A stretch of 41,071 nt of DNA from Nitriliruptorales bacterium (GTDB taxonomy: Bacteria; Actinomycetota; Nitriliruptoria; Euzebyales; Egibacteraceae). A model generated the notes under the pieces. The model was not told where the DNA came from and searched no databases. It worked only from the letters and a program-made list of their open reading frames with translations. The DNA is taken from NCBI GenBank assembly GCA_007119035.1, contig SKQL01000026.1, forward strand, positions 1-41,071. Direction: 5' to 3'. Positions within the stretch are counted from its first letter, which is position 1. Every line of letters begins with the position of its first letter. A program made the position numbers and the translations under genes. Below, one piece after another: positions 34,045-41,071 of the stretch.

Positions 34045-34090
34045 GCGCCCTCCGGCGGGCTGGTGCGGTGGATGCTATCCTTCAGATGTG

Positions 34091-34132
34091 CCCGCTCGCG
34101 GGCTGTTTGACGTGTCATCCGCGAGTTCGCGG
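34091..34132 (+). promoter_or_regulatory. Two hairpins in the leader of yceD-rpmF-rnc
   Basis: CCCGC-TC-GCGGG (34091-34102), followed by CTGTTTGA, and CCGCGA-GT-TCGCGG (34119-34132) lie one after the other in the 119-base gap before yceD. A TATCCT at 34076-34081 could be the -10 box of the transcript that carries them. They could form a 5' leader for the ribosomal protein operon. Confidence 0.38.
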
Positions 34133-34163
34133 CCTGACCCCGCGCCGAGCCAGGAGCCCTGTT

Positions 34164-34721
34164 GTGCTCATGAGTTTTCTGCTCAGCGACTACATCCTCC
34201 CCGTGTCAGACCTGATGGAGCGCCCCGGAGCGTCTCGTGAGGTCGACCTCGCCCTGCCCGTGCCACGCGACTTCGAGCTCCCCCTCGCCTCCATCGAGGA
34301 CCCGGTGCGCCTCGACGGCGTGGTGGAGAGCGTGGTTGACGGGCTGCTCGTGCGGGGCCAGCTCGAGAGCCTCCTGGGCCTTGGCTGTGCGCGTTGCCTG
34401 CGCCCCCTCCAGCGGGAGGTCGATGTGTCCGTGGTCGAGCTCTTCCTCGATCCCGCGAAGGTCGACCCGAGCGACGAGATCGAGGGCGGCTACGAGCTGA
34501 TGGAAGGCGTGTTGTCCCTCGAGACGCTGCTGCGGGATGCCCTTTCGGCCACGATCCCTTACCGTCCGTTGTGCATGGACGAGTGCCGCGGGCTCTGCGT
34601 CGAGTGCGGCGCCAACCTGAACGAGACCCAGTGCGCGTGCGCGGAGACGGTCACGGACCCGCGCTGGGAGGCGCTCCGCGGGCTGCGCCTGCCCGACGAC
34701 GGTGTCCCGGACCAGAACTGA
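34164..34721 (+). CDS. YceD/DUF177-family protein
   Basis: 185 residues. [64 protein letters not shown] is the DUF177 core with its Cxx[38 protein letters not shown] gives the C-terminal cysteine cluster typical of this family. YceD is encoded with L32 in most bacteria and is linked to 23S rRNA maturation or ribosome assembly. GTG 34164 has CAGGAG seven bases upstream; the in-frame ATG two codons later is the alternative. The longer frame from 34068 would cover the leader hairpins and is rejected. Confidence 0.88.
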
Positions 34722-34953: not shown

Positions 34954-35658
34954 TTGAGGACCACAGACATCGAGAACGCGCTCGGGCTCACGTTCATCGA
35001 CCGTGGCCTTCTCGATCTGGCGCTCACTCACCGCAGCTGGGCGTTCGAGGCTGGTGGCCTCCCCACCAACGAGCGCCTCGAGTTCCTGGGCGACGCAGTC
35101 CTCGGCCTGGTCATCACCGACCAGGTCTACAAGTCGCTGCCCGACGACCCCGAGGGCCGGCTCGCGAAGCTCAGGGCGGCGATCGTCAACACGGGCAGTC
35201 TCGCGGAGGTGGCGAGGCACCTCCGGGTGGGCGGGCAGGTCAAGCTCGGAAGGGGCGAGGAGCAGTCCGGAGGGCGGGACAAGGACTCCATACTCGCGGA
35301 CACGCTCGAGGCACTGATCGGCGCGGTGTACCTCGACCAGGGCATCGAGGCCGCGAGTGAGGTCGTCCATCGCCTCTTCGACCAGTTGGTGGGGGAGCTG
35401 GCGGCCCGGGGGGACGCGCTCGATTTCAAGACGGCCCTCCAGGAGCTGGCCGCCGCGGAGCACTCCACGCTCCCCGTCTACGAGTTGAGCGAAGAGGGCC
35501 CCGATCACGCCAAGCGGTTCACGGCCCGGGCGATGATCGAAGGCGAGGAGCTCGGGCATGGCAGGGGCCGGAGCAAGAAGGAGGCCGAGCAACAGGCTGC
35601 GCAGCAGGCGCTGGGGGCCCTGGCGGCCAGGACGAGCGCGTCGAAGGAGTCGGCGTGA
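34954..35658 (+). CDS. rnc: Ribonuclease III
   Basis: Cleaves double-stranded RNA in rRNA and mRNA processing. 234 residues: the signature [15 protein letters not shown] (E40-D47), a second acidic pair D116 and E119 in [13 protein letters not shown], and a C-terminal dsRNA-binding domain from about 160 ([40 protein letters not shown]). Start is uncertain: the frame has no ATG or GTG near the homology start, and TTG 34954 fits best, ten bases after the rpmF stop. A GGAGG inside the rpmF end lies 16 bases upstream, farther than ideal. The stop overlaps the next gene's GTG. Confidence 0.92.
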
Positions 35659-36491
35659 CCTACCTGCCCGAGGCCGAGCTGATCCGCAAGGGCCTCGAGA
35701 AGGAGGTCGTGGGCAAGCGGTTCAAGTCCGTCACCGTCAGGTCGCCGGGCACGGTCCAGCGTCATCGCAACCGCCCCGACTTCGCCAAGGTGCTCGAGGG
35801 CCGCAAGATCATCGCGGTCACCCGCCGCGGGACCCGTATCGTCCTCGATCTCGACGACGGCTCATCCCTGGTGATGATGCTGGGTGCCGAGGGGGTGCTC
35901 TCCCGGGAGACCGCCAACGCAACGGCGGGAGCGCAGACCCAGGTGGTGCTCACGTTCACCACCGGTGGATCGCTCCACCTCGCGGACCCCATCCAGGGCG
36001 CGGAGCTGTTCGTCGCCGCCACCGAGGGGCTCGACGACATCCCCGAGCTGTCGCCCGGGGGCATCGACCCCCTGGCGGCCACGTTCACCTGGCAGGCCTT
36101 CGGGCACTACCTCACCGGACGCAAGCAGCCGCTCAAGGTGCTGCTGCAGGATGAGACCTTCGTCCTGGGGCTCGGTGAGCTCTACACCGACGAGATCCTC
36201 TGGGTGGCGGGGCTCGCGGGCGACCGGCTGTCGCTCAGCTTATCGAGCCAGGAGATCAGGCGGCTCTACCGCGCCCTCTTCGAGGTCCTGTACGAGGCGA
36301 TGAAGCAGGGCGGGACCTCTGAGGACGGGGAGGGTGGCTACGCGGATCTCGAGGGCGAGCTCGGGGAGTACGGCAAGCAGTTGAGCGTGCACGGCCGGGC
36401 TGGCCTGCCGTGCCCCCGCTGCCGGCGCCCGATCACCCTGGACAAGGTCGAGGGCCTGCCGATCTACTACTGCGACTCGTGCCAGACCTGA
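35655..36491 (+). CDS. MutM/Fpg-fold protein lacking the glycosylase catalytic residues
   Basis: 278 residues aligning over the whole length with Fpg/Nei DNA glycosylases: the N-terminal beta-sandwich, the helix-two-turns-helix [16 protein letters not shown], and a zinc finger (CPRC...CDSC near the C-terminus). Yet the residues that define catalysis are changed. The N-terminal P-E of PELPEVE is T2-Y3 (TYLPEAE), the beta-turn lysine (Lys57 of E. coli Fpg) is T60, the DNA-binding Asn of GIGNIYADE is Glu, and the zinc-finger Arg (Arg258) is Leu. GTG 35655, in a GTGA overlap with rnc, is the only start, so the N-terminus is not misread. Base excision by the classical Schiff-base route is therefore unlikely. 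It may bind DNA or act as a non-catalytic paralogue. Confidence 0.82.
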
Positions 36492-36499
36492 CGACGGGG

Positions 36500-37579
36500 G
36501 TGGGTGGCACAGGCGGGCATGGCGGCCTGCTCCACGCCTGGCGTCCGCTGCGCCTCACCCCCGTCCTTGTGGAGAAGCCTTGGGGCGGGCGCCGTCTCGA
36601 GCGGCTCTCGCGGACCCTCCCGCCGGGCGCGGCCGTCGGGGAGAGCTGGGAGGTCGCTGACCTCGATTCCACGTCCACCTCGGTGACCGACTCCGCGACC
36701 CGCGTAGCGTCAGGGCCACATGCGGGAGCGACCCTGCACGATCTCATCGTCCGGGATCCTGGCGCGATGCTGGGGGACGGATGGTCCGACGTGGCGCGGT
36801 TCCCCCTGTTGGTCAAGCTCCTCGATGCTCGTGAGGCCCTCTCCGTCCAGGTGCACCCTCCCCAGGGCTACGTGGCCGATCACCCGGGCTCCCATGTGAA
36901 GACGGAGACGTGGGTGGTGCTCGACGCGGACCCCGGTGCCGAGCTTCTCATCGGCCTCGTCGACGGGGTGACGCCCGACATGCTCGCCGACGTCGCAGGC
37001 ACCCCCGGCATGCTCCATCTCCTGCGTCGGGTGCCGGCCGTTCCCGGAACGGTGTTCCATCTCCCCGCGGGTCTGCTCCACGCCCTGGGCGAGGGCATGC
37101 TCGTCGCAGAGGTGCAGACACCGAGCGACACGACGTTCCGGCTCTACGACTGGTCCGCCGAGTACGCCCGCCCGCCGCGCACCCTGCATCTCCGCGAGGG
37201 CCTCGAGTGCGTCCGGATCGCGTGGGAGCACAATGTGGCGCCCCCTCCCTCGCCCGCTGTGGACGCCACGCTCCTGGTGGATGCCCCGCAATACCGGCTG
37301 CTCCGCCACCCGCTCGCAGAGGGATCGCGGTTGCGCTATCCGGCCGGCCGTGCCCGCGTGCTCCAGGTCGTGGAAGGGCGCCTGGGCGGCGAGGACCTCG
37401 ACGGGGCATTGGGCCCCGTCGACGCGGTGGTCCTACCCGCCGCGTGGTCGGGGACGCTTCACGCGGTGGGGCACGCGACGGTGCTCGAGGCGGTCCCACA
37501 ACGGCCCGCTACCCCGAACGTGCCAGCCACACGTCGAGACCCACGCCTAAAGTCACCGCGAGAAGCACCAACACGGTGA
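36500..37579 (+). CDS. manA: Mannose-6-phosphate isomerase, class I
   Basis: Interconverts mannose-6-phosphate and fructose-6-phosphate, feeding GDP-mannose and envelope glycans. 359 residues of the cupin-type enzyme: LTPVLVEKPWGGRRL, LPLLVKLLDAREALSVQVHP with H119, KTETWVVL with E136, and VFHLPAGLLHALGEGM with H194 as zinc ligands. The sequence is closer to the shorter Bacillus/Thermotoga type than to E. coli ManA. GTG 36500 lies eight bases after the previous stop; no strong Shine-Dalgarno. The 3' end overlaps the convergent DnaJ-domain gene by 71 bases. Confidence 0.86.
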   Translation: MGGTGGHGGLLHAWRPLRLTPVLVEKPWGGRRLERLSRTLPPGAAVGESWEVADLDSTSTSVTDSATRVASGPHAGATLHDLIVRDPGAMLGDGWSDVARFPLLVKLLDAREALSVQVHPPQGYVADHPGSHVKTETWVVLDADPGAELLIGLVDGVTPDMLADVAGTPGMLHLLRRVPAVPGTVFHLPAGLLHALGEGMLVAEVQTPSDTTFRLYDWSAEYARPPRTLHLREGLECVRIAWEHNVAPPPSPAVDATLLVDAPQYRLLRHPLAEGSRLRYPAGRARVLQVVEGRLGGEDLDGALGPVDAVVLPAAWSGTLHAVGHATVLEAVPQRPATPNVPATRRDPRLKSPREAPTR

Positions 37580-38201
37580 CGAGGGCCAGGGGCCGGGGAG
37601 GGGCCGGCAGCCCGGCCATCCTCCGGTGCAGGCGACGTCCCTTGGCCGATCCCATGACCCACCCCGCTAGCAGGCCGACCGCCGGAGTGGCCGCGCCCGT
37701 CGTCTCGAGCGCGAACCGAGCCGCGCCGAGCGCGAGGACCACGCCGAGGAACGCTCCGAGGACGGAGTAGCCGAGCCATAGCACACGGGCGAAGGCCAGC
37801 CTTCCCGCGTGGCGCACGGTCAGATGGGCGCGGATCGCGGCCCGCTCCACGGCTCGCCGGTTGCGAGCCCACCAGCGTCCCGCCCACCGGCCCGCGCCGT
37901 CGAGCAGGGACTGCCAGCGCCGGGCGAGCTCGGTGTCCGCGGCCTCGACCGTGGCCCGGCGACGGTGCGCCGCGCGGACAAGGTCATAATCGCGACGGCT
38001 CCGGGGATCGCGCACAAGGCCGTAGGAGACGTTGATCCGCTGGACCCGCTCGTTGGCCTGGGGACGCTGCTCGGGCGGCTGGAGGTCGGGATGGTGGCGT
38101 CGGACCAGCCGGCGGTGAGCGGCCTTCAGTTCGGCCTGGGAGGCGTCGGGGCTCACGCCCAGAACCTCGTAGGCGTCGATCAGGTCTTGCCCTGCACCCA
38201 C
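37509..38201 (-). CDS. DnaJ-domain membrane protein
   Basis: 230 residues. An N-terminal J domain (DAYEVLGVSPDASQAELKAAHRRLVRRHHPDL, with H37-P38-D39, then INVSYGLVRDPRSRRDYD) should stimulate a DnaK ATPase. A basic linker of about 60 residues leads to hydrophobic segments at about 135-185 and 205-225, so the J domain is probably held at the inner face of the membrane. No zinc finger or client-binding domain. GTG start overlaps the upstream hydrolase by 22 bases, pointing to one transcript. Confidence 0.8.
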   Translation of the reverse strand: MGAGQDLIDAYEVLGVSPDASQAELKAAHRRLVRRHHPDLQPPEQRPQANERVQRINVSYGLVRDPRSRRDYDLVRAAHRRRATVEAADTELARRWQSLLDGAGRWAGRWWARNRRAVERAAIRAHLTVRHAGRLAFARVLWLGYSVLGAFLGVVLALGAARFALETTGAATPAVGLLAGWVMGSAKGRRLHRRMAGLPAPPRPLALVTVLVLLAVTLGVGLDVWLARSG

Positions 38202-39181
38202 GTGAATGCCTTCTCGAGGGCGGGCAGGAATATCTCGGGATGGGCGACGATGCCGTCATGGTCGAGGGGGAGCTCCTGGAGGGAGGCGCCGAGGATCCGT
38301 CCTGCGAGGGCACGTTGGCGGGCCGGGGGGACGAGCACGTCCTGGGTCGTCACGAGCACCGCCGTCGGCACGTCGATGGTGCCCACCCAACCTCGCGCGT
38401 CGAAGCGGCCCATCTCCCGCAGGGCCTCCGCGATGTCCTCCGCACTGCCACGGTTGAACTCGCCCGCCATCCACGGGAGGCGGTCGATCACCTCCCTGGG
38501 CGTCTCGGGGGTGATCATCCGGCTGATGCGAATCGGGAGGCGCCCCTCCGCCTGCGCGAGCAGCAAGCGCTCGACCACGTGACGCGGGGCGAGTCGGAGG
38601 ATGATCTGCAGAGCGCCTGTGCCCCTCCATACCCAGCGCTCTCTGGCCGAGACGTTGTAGACGTCGGTCGTGGCGCAGAGGACGAGCCCCTGGACCACGT
38701 CGGGATGACGCTGCCACAGCAGCTGGGCTACCTGCCCGCCCATGGAGTAGCCGATGGCGATGGCGGGTGTCGCATCGAGCTGGCGCAGCAGGGCCGCGAC
38801 GTCGTCGGCCACGTCCGTGAGCCGGAACGGCCGCGACGGGCGAGACCCGCGACCGTGACCGCGGTTGTCGGGGGCGATGACCCGGGCATGGGGGGCGAGC
38901 GCCTCGAACGTCCGGAACCAGTGAAGGTCTCCGGGGAACATCCAACCATGGACGAGCACGACGGTCGGTGCGTCCGGATAGGGGGGGCCGAGCTCGCGCA
39001 CGAAGATCTCACCGCGCTCGGGGACATAGACGACACGGCCCGGGGGGAGCGGTGGGGGCATCTCAGAGGAGATCTCCCGTACCGAGTCGGGTCGAGATCT
39101 TCCTGCGATCACCAGCCACCCCGCGAACATGCTCGTGACGAGGACGAGCAGCATGCGCAGGAGCTTGCGGAGCAAGGGCAT
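38180..39181 (-). CDS. Alpha/beta hydrolase with N-terminal membrane anchor
   Basis: 333 residues. A hydrophobic anchor at about 5-27 (RKLLRMLLVLVTSMFAGWLVIAG) precedes an alpha/beta-hydrolase domain: VVLVHGWMFPGDLHW (oxyanion region HGW), APDNRGHGRGSRP, nucleophile elbow GYSMGG with S146, VPTAVLVTTQDVLVPP (Asp) and LDHDGIVAHPEIF (His). Esterase, lipase or dehalogenase-like activity is possible, with no substrate clue. ATG 39181 has GGAGGC eight bases upstream; the longer frame to 39268 lacks one. Confidence 0.85.
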   Translation of the reverse strand: MPLLRKLLRMLLVLVTSMFAGWLVIAGRSRPDSVREISSEMPPPLPPGRVVYVPERGEIFVRELGPPYPDAPTVVLVHGWMFPGDLHWFRTFEALAPHARVIAPDNRGHGRGSRPSRPFRLTDVADDVAALLRQLDATPAIAIGYSMGGQVAQLLWQRHPDVVQGLVLCATTDVYNVSARERWVWRGTGALQIILRLAPRHVVERLLLAQAEGRLPIRISRMITPETPREVIDRLPWMAGEFNRGSAEDIAEALREMGRFDARGWVGTIDVPTAVLVTTQDVLVPPARQRALAGRILGASLQELPLDHDGIVAHPEIFLPALEKAFTWVQGKT

Positions 39182-39519
39182 TCGACTGCCTCCGGGTTGG
39201 TGCGGGGTTCCACGAGCAGCGGCCCCAGTGTGCCTGCCCCGGCGCAGGAGGTGCCCGCCCGCTGTCATGTGCCCCCTGCGACTGCGCCAGGCTTGCGCGT
39301 CATTCTGGCGGGAGGGTATAGTGCATTAGTGAAGACGGCAGCCGTCGCCGCCTGCGGCAATACTGCACGGCGTCGGCTCGTCATCCGTCCGTCAGCCTAC
39401 GCGCTGCTGTAGCGTTGATGTGTTGGGTTTCGTGTCGAAGCTGACAGGCTTGCGGCATGTGGACGGAGGCGCCGATCAACCATCAGACGATCAGCCACAC
39501 AATGCAGGAGGACCCCCGC
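39182..39519. other. Gap between the hydrolase and the small coiled-coil gene
   Basis: About 340 bases. It holds a convincing rightward promoter (39293-39322), a 27-codon frame starting with GTG at the expected transcription start, and several small hairpins (for example GACGG-CAG-CCGTC near 39335). Nothing else is supported. Confidence 0.5.
39293..39322 (+). promoter_or_regulatory. Promoter toward the coiled-coil gene and smc
   Basis: TTGCGC (39293-39298), an 18-base spacer and TATAGT (39317-39322, five of six matches to TATAAT). The start would fall near 39329, which is the G of a GTG opening a 27-codon frame. Downstream translated genes begin at 39520 and 39751, implying a leader of about 190 bases for the first. 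Confidence 0.55.
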
Positions 39520-39750: not shown

Positions 39751-41071
39751 GTGTACCTGAGGGGACTCACCCTGAGGGGTTTCAAGTCGTTCGCGGACAA
39801 GACGCGACTCGACTTCGAGCCGGGAGTCACCGTCGTGGTAGGGCCCAACGGCTCCGGCAAGAGCAACATCGTCGATGCCCTGACGTGGGCCCTTGGCAGC
39901 CATAGCGCCAAGTCCATGCGTGGCGGTGCGATGAGCGACGTCATCTTCGCGGGGTCCCCAAGCCGTTCCGCGCTCGGGCGGGCGTCCGTGGAGCTCACGA
40001 TCGACAACACCTCGGGGAGCCTCCCGATCGACTACGCGGAGGTCACCGTCAGCCGGTCTATGTTCCGGTCCGGGGAGACCGACTACGCCATCAATGGCGA
40101 ATCGTGCCGGATGCTCGACGTCGCCGAGCTGCTCAGTGACTCGGGCCTCGGGCGGGAGAACCACACGATCGTGGGCCAGGGCCAGATCGACGCGGTGCTG
40201 GGGGCCAAGCCGGAGGAGCGGCGCGCGCTGATCGAGGAGGCCGCCGGGATCCTCAAGCACCGTAGGCGCAAGGAGCGGTCTCTTCGCAAGCTGGCCCAGA
40301 CCGAGGCGCACCTCGAACGTCTCGGTGACGTCCTGCGCGAGGTGCGACGCAGCCTCAAGCCGCTCGAGCGGCAAGCGGAGGCGGCCGCCAAGCACGCGGA
40401 CCTCACGGCCGAGCTGCGGGCCGTGCGCGTCACGCGTGCGCTGCGGGAGCTCTACACCCTCACGCGTCAGCTCGAGGAGGAGGACACGGGTCGGCGAGAG
40501 GCCGGTGACCGCATCACCGCCCTGGAGGCCGCCCTGGAGGAGGCCCGCTCCCGTGAGGGCGAGATCGACGCGGCCATCGCCCGGTTGGCCCCGGAGGCGG
40601 AGGCCGCGGGCCTCACCCACTTTCGACTGGCCAACCTCGTCGAGCGCTACGACGGGCTGAGGGCCCGTCTCGAGGAGCGTCGTCGCGGGCTGTCCGAGGC
40701 GGTCGAGGAGCCGATCGCCGGTTGGGACCCCGAGCAGCTGCGGGACGAGGCCGCAGACGAGCGGATACGCCTGTCATCGATGGAGGCCGGGGTGTCAGGT
40801 GCGCAGGCGGAGCTCGCCGCTCGGGAGCAGGAGCGTGCGAGCGCGGAGCAGGCACGCCGCGCCCATGAGCAGGCTGCTGCCGCGGAGTCCCGCAGGCGCG
40901 CCCAGGAGCGCGAGCGGCGACTGCGCTGGGAGGGGGAGGTCGCTGCGCTGCGCAGTGCGCTCGCGCAGGCCGCCAGCGAGGAAGGTCGCCTCGCCGGGCA
41001 GCTCTCCTCGCTCCGGGCCCGCCACGAGGGGCTGGTGGCTGACGTCGAGAGCGTGCAGGCGGAGATCCAGC
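39751..41071 (+). CDS. smc: Chromosome segregation ATPase SMC, N-terminal part (runs off the right edge)
   Basis: Condensin subunit that organises and segregates the chromosome. The first 440 codons are present. They begin VYLRGLTLRGFKSFADKTRLDFEPGVTVVVGPNGSGKSN with Walker A GPNGSGKS, followed by VDALTWALG, SDVIFAG, the Q-loop region IVGQGQIDAVLGAKPEERRALIEEAAGILKHRRRKERS, and then the first coiled-coil arm. The hinge, second arm and Walker B lie beyond the window. GTG 39751 has AAGGG six bases upstream. In most actinobacteria smc directly follows mutM; here four genes intervene. Confidence 0.94.
   Translation, partial: MYLRGLTLRGFKSFADKTRLDFEPGVTVVVGPNGSGKSNIVDALTWALGSHSAKSMRGGAMSDVIFAGSPSRSALGRASVELTIDNTSGSLPIDYAEVTVSRSMFRSGETDYAINGESCRMLDVAELLSDSGLGRENHTIVGQGQIDAVLGAKPEERRALIEEAAGILKHRRRKERSLRKLAQTEAHLERLGDVLREVRRSLKPLERQAEAAAKHADLTAELRAVRVTRALRELYTLTRQLEEEDTGRREAGDRITALEAALEEARSREGEIDAAIARLAPEAEAAGLTHFRLANLVERYDGLRARLEERRRGLSEAVEEPIAGWDPEQLRDEAADERIRLSSMEAGVSGAQAELAAREQERASAEQARRAHEQAAAAESRRRAQERERRLRWEGEVAALRSALAQAASEEGRLAGQLSSLRARHEGLVADVESVQAEIQ

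Follow-up and report, generated by a model that had tools for sequence, protein, structure and literature searches.

In NEIL3, the N-terminal proline of the Fpg/Nei enzymes is replaceable and a valine is used in its stead, and in NEIL1 the zinc hairpin can be zincless; both proteins are active enzymes in which the rest of the catalytic and DNA-contact residues are kept. In this study, we analyzed a MutM/Fpg homolog encoded in the window, the whole stretch of 41,071 nucleotides under analysis from a Nitriliruptorales bacterium, which resembles NEIL3 in its altered N-terminal residue, but unlike NEIL3 and NEIL1 has not kept the remaining catalytic and DNA-contact residues. It shares with characterized MutM/Fpg (EC 3.2.2.23; TIGR00577, NF002211; B. 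stearothermophilus MutM 1R2Y, E. coli Fpg 1K82) the fold (TM 0.91), H2TH region and zinc hairpin, and its locus is orthologous to the rnc-mutM-smc locus that houses canonical relatives, but it has no catalytic or DNA-contact residue save Glu5, is acidic and scores under the family cut-offs. In Mycobacterium tuberculosis, the catalytic residues of Mtb-Fpg1 (Rv2924c) are conserved (PMC2734929), and its gene, as those of other rnc-adjacent actinobacterial MutM proteins, adjoins rnc like the window gene. Mtb-Fpg2 (Rv0944), an Fpg-family protein which like the window protein is without the N-terminal catalytic residues, is truncated in M. tuberculosis and has full-length orthologs in M. smegmatis and M. 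avium (PMC2734929); the window protein, in contrast to Mtb-Fpg2, is full-length and class-wide. A literature search found no paper on a non-catalytic bacterial Fpg, on MutM together with RNase III or on a pseudoenzyme MutM, and class-wide conserved non-catalytic members of the Fpg/Nei superfamily appear to be undescribed in the literature searched. The window protein is a MutM pseudoenzyme of a kind that is widespread and has evolved repeatedly, and it is found class-wide in Nitriliruptoria.

The pseudo-MutM gene (35655..36491, + strand, as are all features below) starts with GTG and encodes a non-catalytic MutM/Fpg-fold protein of 278 residues, identified from PF01149 and PF06831, an AlphaFold (AF2) model, Foldseek and its orthologs. 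Its start overlaps by 4 bp (GTGA) the stop of rnc, which encodes RNase III directly upstream (34954..35658; PF14622, PF00636 and PF00035) and has an inferred TTG start codon in the window. The first-pass annotation had described the Fpg fold, H2TH region and four-cysteine zinc finger as kept, and this was borne out. PF01149 (E = 2.6e-19, 70.4 bits versus a Pfam cut-off of 25.5) and the H2TH family PF06831 (E = 8.9e-18, 64.5 versus 34.7 bits) both scored above their curated cut-offs, and the C-terminal zinc hairpin cysteines C253, C256, C273 and C276, which are lost in some orthologs, are all present. The AF2 model, made with an alignment of 77 relatives, had a mean pLDDT of 94.8, and its best PDB matches in Foldseek were MutM structures, the top one being 1r2y (TM 0.91, 2.0 Å, 34% identity). 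PF06827 matched weakly (13.6 bits versus a cut-off of 21.3), and the protein falls under the NCBIfam Fpg equivalog cut-offs of both TIGR00577 (180.4 versus 203.3 bits) and NF002211 (181.5 versus 212). The source draft genome (1.9 Mb, 69% complete) does hold the second canonical mutM whose presence had been suggested as a check, an Fpg on another contig (G000:C51) with PELPEVE, the lysine, GMTG, GNIY and the arginine and a score of 244 bits on TIGR00577, as well as a Nei2-like protein (G000:C24).

Alignment of the window protein to E. coli Fpg, whose numbering is used for reference positions, and to the canonical Fpg of its own genome showed that the four active-site replacements named in the first-pass annotation are correct. 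Catalytic Pro1-Glu2 is T2-Y3 (35658..35663), Lys56 is T60 (35832..35834; T, R, I, V, H or N across the clade), the H2TH Asn168 is E175 (36177..36179) and Arg258 is L268, within the zinc hairpin (36411..36482). Further losses, absent from that annotation, are H70 to M75, M73 to A78, H89 to Q94, R108 to I113 and F110 to G115. The Met73/Arg108/Phe110 wedge of Fpg is thus represented by Ala78, Ile113 and Gly115, with His70 and Met73 (HLGMSG) lost in the M75-E79 region (35877..35891) and I113-Q114-G115 standing in the place of Arg108 and Phe110 (DPRRFG; 35991..35999), and the 8-oxoG-capping loop is replaced by an acidic stretch (residues 218–243; 36306..36383) that is partly of low confidence in the AF2 model. 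Only Glu5 (E6 in the window protein) is kept, as it is in nearly all relatives.

These positions are not only substituted but also variable. The mean entropy of 13 catalytic and groove columns was 2.30 bits in the window protein's clade versus 0.08 in catalytic rnc-linked proteins, the groove columns exceeded random columns of the same protein in variability (P = 1.5e-4), and the corresponding test on the other non-catalytic lineages gave P = 0.0014. The median pI was 5.4 for non-catalytic and 9.4 for catalytic rnc-linked proteins, a shift in net charge from about +10 to about −10. Such variability of the groove and the acidity of the protein make it unlikely that DNA or lesions are bound. The suggestion that the protein had been selected for lesion recognition or DNA binding was not supported: nothing is left of the phosphate pincers, the wedge triad or the 8-oxoG loop, their positions are hypervariable, and the charge has flipped. 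On these three grounds, binding of DNA or lesions in the manner of Fpg was rejected.

Of 66 genomes from the class Nitriliruptoria, 63 have an ortholog, among them every one of the 33 that are at least 90% complete and little contaminated; the three genomes without one are 59%, 78% and 89% complete. Scanning genome contigs gave matches with an alignment and none with a single sequence, and we infer that the ortholog group, labeled Euzebyales, Nitriliruptorales and Nitriliruptoraceae, corresponds to the class Nitriliruptoria. Position 1 is Thr, Ser, Leu or Met in every class member read except one (L053), which keeps the proline and has lost the remaining catalytic residues, and none of the class members read has a working combination of residues at positions 56, 168 and 258. 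The catalytic set was lost in 59 of the 59 non-catalytic sequences in the data set, and no close relative has the intact active site that would have spoken for an error in the window. The class orthologs are about 40–66% identical, and dN/dS in close pairs was 0.10–0.33 for non-catalytic proteins versus 0.02–0.18 for catalytic relatives. The earlier proposal of a scaffold selected for a non-glycosylase job, rather than decay or sequencing error, thus agrees with the class-wide orthologs and the purifying selection on an intact scaffold, and we are highly confident that the window protein is non-catalytic and under selection.

The order of the ortholog locus is rsmD-coaD-(divIVA)-yceD-rpmF-rnc-mutMx-(0–3 genes)-smc, of which the portion from rpmF to smc is common to the catalytic and non-catalytic states, and the 4-bp overlap of rnc and mutMx occurs in several lineages. 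In the window, yceD (23S rRNA accumulation protein; 34068..34721; PF02620) and rpmF (ribosomal protein L32; 34761..34943; similarity across loci) precede rnc; downstream, the locus is anchored by the conserved smc, of which the window contains the 5' part (39751..41070) before the gene runs out of it. The window protein belongs to the rnc-linked MutM group both by this syntenic rpmF-rnc-mutM-smc locus and by grouping with the rnc-linked MutM proteins of sister classes. At the same rnc-smc locus, sister classes, including most Acidimicrobiia read, have catalytic orthologs with intact P/K/N/R. In a gene tree built with the catalytic columns removed, the window protein fell inside a non-catalytic clade with support of 100/99, and further non-catalytic groups comprised family f6 with L139, L150 and L153, L038 and a Microthrix-type group of Acidimicrobiales. 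In none of 200 bootstrap trees did the non-catalytic proteins all group together. A single ancient loss was not rejected by an AU test on the gene tree alone (p = 0.064), but was rejected (delta lnL 313, AU p = 2.3e-73) by a host-proxy tree of neighboring genes (RNase III, SMC N-terminus, CoaD and YceD), which requires eight state changes, three of them forced by supported branches. On this tree, catalysis at rnc-linked MutM has been lost independently at least three times.

Several other Fpg-family proteins are partly altered. In the Acidimicrobiaceae, the rnc-linked MutM of L162 (mutM 2153–2992) has K56N, R108N and F110A, keeps P1, N168 and R258, is nested among catalytic relatives and, from its sequence, seems to be in the course of losing catalysis; that of its sister L156 carries R108K and M73L in a genome with a second canonical Fpg. 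A MELPEVE clade (L112, L115, L120, L122, L128, L131, L134, L138, L036, L041 and L045) is otherwise canonical rnc-linked MutM, with K56, N168, R258 and the wedge intact, but misses Pro1, in whose place the initiator Met would stand; this clade may use a different nucleophile at the N-terminus, or it may be an intermediate toward loss. In L056 and L058, Fpg-family proteins from other members of the phylum, the H2TH Asn168 is Ser (GIGSIY), and P1, K56 and R258 are kept.

Among 61 genomes whose rnc-linked copy is non-catalytic, 59 had a second Fpg over the TIGR00577 cut-off elsewhere, versus 1 of about 32 with a catalytic one. The corresponding Fisher p is 4e-21 among genomes that are related by descent; on the host tree there are only three supported independent pairs for state and second Fpg, and these were concordant in nearly all pairings. 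Two genomes, G022 (2.1 Mb, 96% complete) and G049 (78%), had no canonical Fpg match by TIGR00577 and kept the non-catalytic copy. G022 (L046, L195) is of the same order as the window genome and lies on a long branch.

That the replacements are an artefact of sequencing, assembly or gene calling in a canonical MutM has a negligible probability: the window genome is a 69%-complete draft, but replacements of the same kind occur in dozens of independent assemblies, including the single-contig genomes G014 and G039. Sequencing error and decay were both rejected on the class-wide orthologs, dN/dS and single-contig genomes. Slow decay, in which a MutM made redundant by a second one drifts toward loss and its scaffold lingers through short time or its operon, would accord with the second canonical copy that accompanies catalytic loss and with a dN/dS somewhat higher than that of catalytic relatives (0.10–0.33 versus 0.02–0.18). 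It is nevertheless very improbable, being contradicted by class-wide purifying selection, by an ortholog in 33 of 33 near-complete class genomes at about 40–66% identity, by invariant residues and clade support of 100/99, and by the copy kept in G022, where there is no canonical Fpg match. Slightly less improbable, but still a poor explanation, is an active glycosylase or lyase whose site has been rebuilt around another nucleophile, in the way that NEIL3 employs a valine, possibly for an unusual substrate. The retained E5 (E6), the variation of the N-terminal residue among active family members and the MELPEVE sister proteins, which do without Pro1 and keep all else, are compatible with it; however, no new conserved set has come in at position 1, K56, N168, R258, the wedge triad or the lesion loop, all of which vary strongly instead.

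What has been conserved includes a polar face of helix alphaF (residues 198–217; 36246..36305) and the zinc-knuckle arginines. R202, R203, R206 and E210 are identical in the 44 + 15 non-catalytic and 57 catalytic rnc-linked sequences, in which Q199, K217, D138, W146, R255 and R257 are nearly invariant, and the alphaF residues have near-zero entropy in the non-catalytic proteins, as opposed to the hypervariable groove columns. D138, W146, Q199, R202, R206, E210, K217 and R257 of this signature are all present in the window protein, whereas most signature residues occur only rarely among 36 canonical Fpgs encoded at other loci, as well as in the rnc-linked L055 and L061 of other lineages, which, unlike the window protein, miss most of the alphaF signature. 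On a helical wheel, Q199, R202, R203, R206, E210 and K217 fall on one side of alphaF, opposite a hydrophobic side, and, judged only by helix periodicity, this polar face would be exposed. R255 and R257, invariant in the hairpin, persist even in L046–L048, L052, L147, L158, L161, L168 and L169, non-catalytic proteins that have lost zinc-finger cysteines, a loss that apparently occurred in several lineages. R255 corresponds to R247 of LlFpg, a second-shell zinc residue in stacking contact with a Trp and bonded to the cysteines that hold the zinc (PMC4176347), and part of the signature is therefore probably structural. The RR..R...E pattern (R202/R203/R206/E210) is also present in the alphaF helix in an alignment of Thermus MutM.

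Because the protein was kept in relatives whose catalytic center was lost on several independent occasions, pseudo-MutM very probably has a second, non-repair job. The best explanation, in our assessment, is that an ortholog of the MutM glycosylase encoded beside rnc in related actinomycetotal classes was stripped of base excision, AP lyase and lesion grasping, and would have been kept since it already had a second, non-glycosylase role. A second MutM may have taken over 8-oxoG repair, leaving the groove free to drift and the other surface fixed. The retained function would be to bind, via the alphaF/zinc-hairpin side, what is most likely a protein, and we lean modestly toward this moonlighting reading with a surface shared with the catalytic relatives. 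That the rnc-smc MutM of several actinomycetotal classes is generally a moonlighting protein whose second function is retained more strictly than DNA repair is a tentative proposal, which we would put at somewhat under an even chance. In this proposal, the alphaF/zinc-hairpin face would act together with RNase III, SMC or components of ribosome maturation, and catalytic orthologs would carry the function too. More speculatively, the partner may be a product of the same conserved cluster, RNase III first and then SMC. The partnership with RNase III that the first-pass annotation had put forward is possible, given the fixed synteny and the 4-bp overlap in several lineages. RNase III is placed first solely on account of its adjacency, the overlapping genes and the link of the cluster to ribosome maturation (yceD, rpmF), and is a doubtful candidate; SMC or another partner may fit as well. 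The rnc/smc synteny is common to canonical MutM, and thus does not necessarily imply a functional link.

A nucleic-acid role, in which RNA (pre-rRNA or other double-stranded RNA with RNase III) or DNA is bound via a new basic patch of R202, R203, R206, K217, R255 and R257, is the less likely alternative to protein binding. Invariant basic residues amid an otherwise acidic protein, and RNase III, YceD and L32 as neighbors, would suit it, but it must be set against a clade net charge of about −10, the loss of the known Fpg phosphate contacts, the equal invariance of E210 and Q199 and the lack of an RNA-binding domain in the window protein in Pfam. A dominant-negative or regulatory decoy that binds lesions without cutting and so modulates canonical MutM is highly unlikely: canonical MutM does co-occur, but the DNA-contact and wedge residues are lost, the protein is acidic and the copy is kept in G022, which has no canonical match.

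Repeated catalytic loss at a fixed locus together with a second canonical MutM constitutes a natural experiment, in which whatever stays constant points to a function that had been hidden in a textbook repair enzyme and names the residues for testing. Under the moonlighting proposal, repeated enzyme loss would expose a second function of rnc-linked MutM. For annotation, 8-oxoG repair should not be assumed from a 'DNA-formamidopyrimidine glycosylase' label in these lineages.

An Rfam scan of the pseudo-MutM neighborhood gave no matches. Between pseudo-MutM and smc (36500–39268), the window has a gene for a type I phosphomannose isomerase-like protein and, on the opposite strand, DnaJ-domain and alpha/beta hydrolase genes; smc is nearer to mutMx in most relatives. 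L038 (minus strand) and L193 (G077, G091) have tandem Fpg-family genes in the arrangement rnc-PELPELDVLAENL-type copy-non-catalytic MutM-smc.
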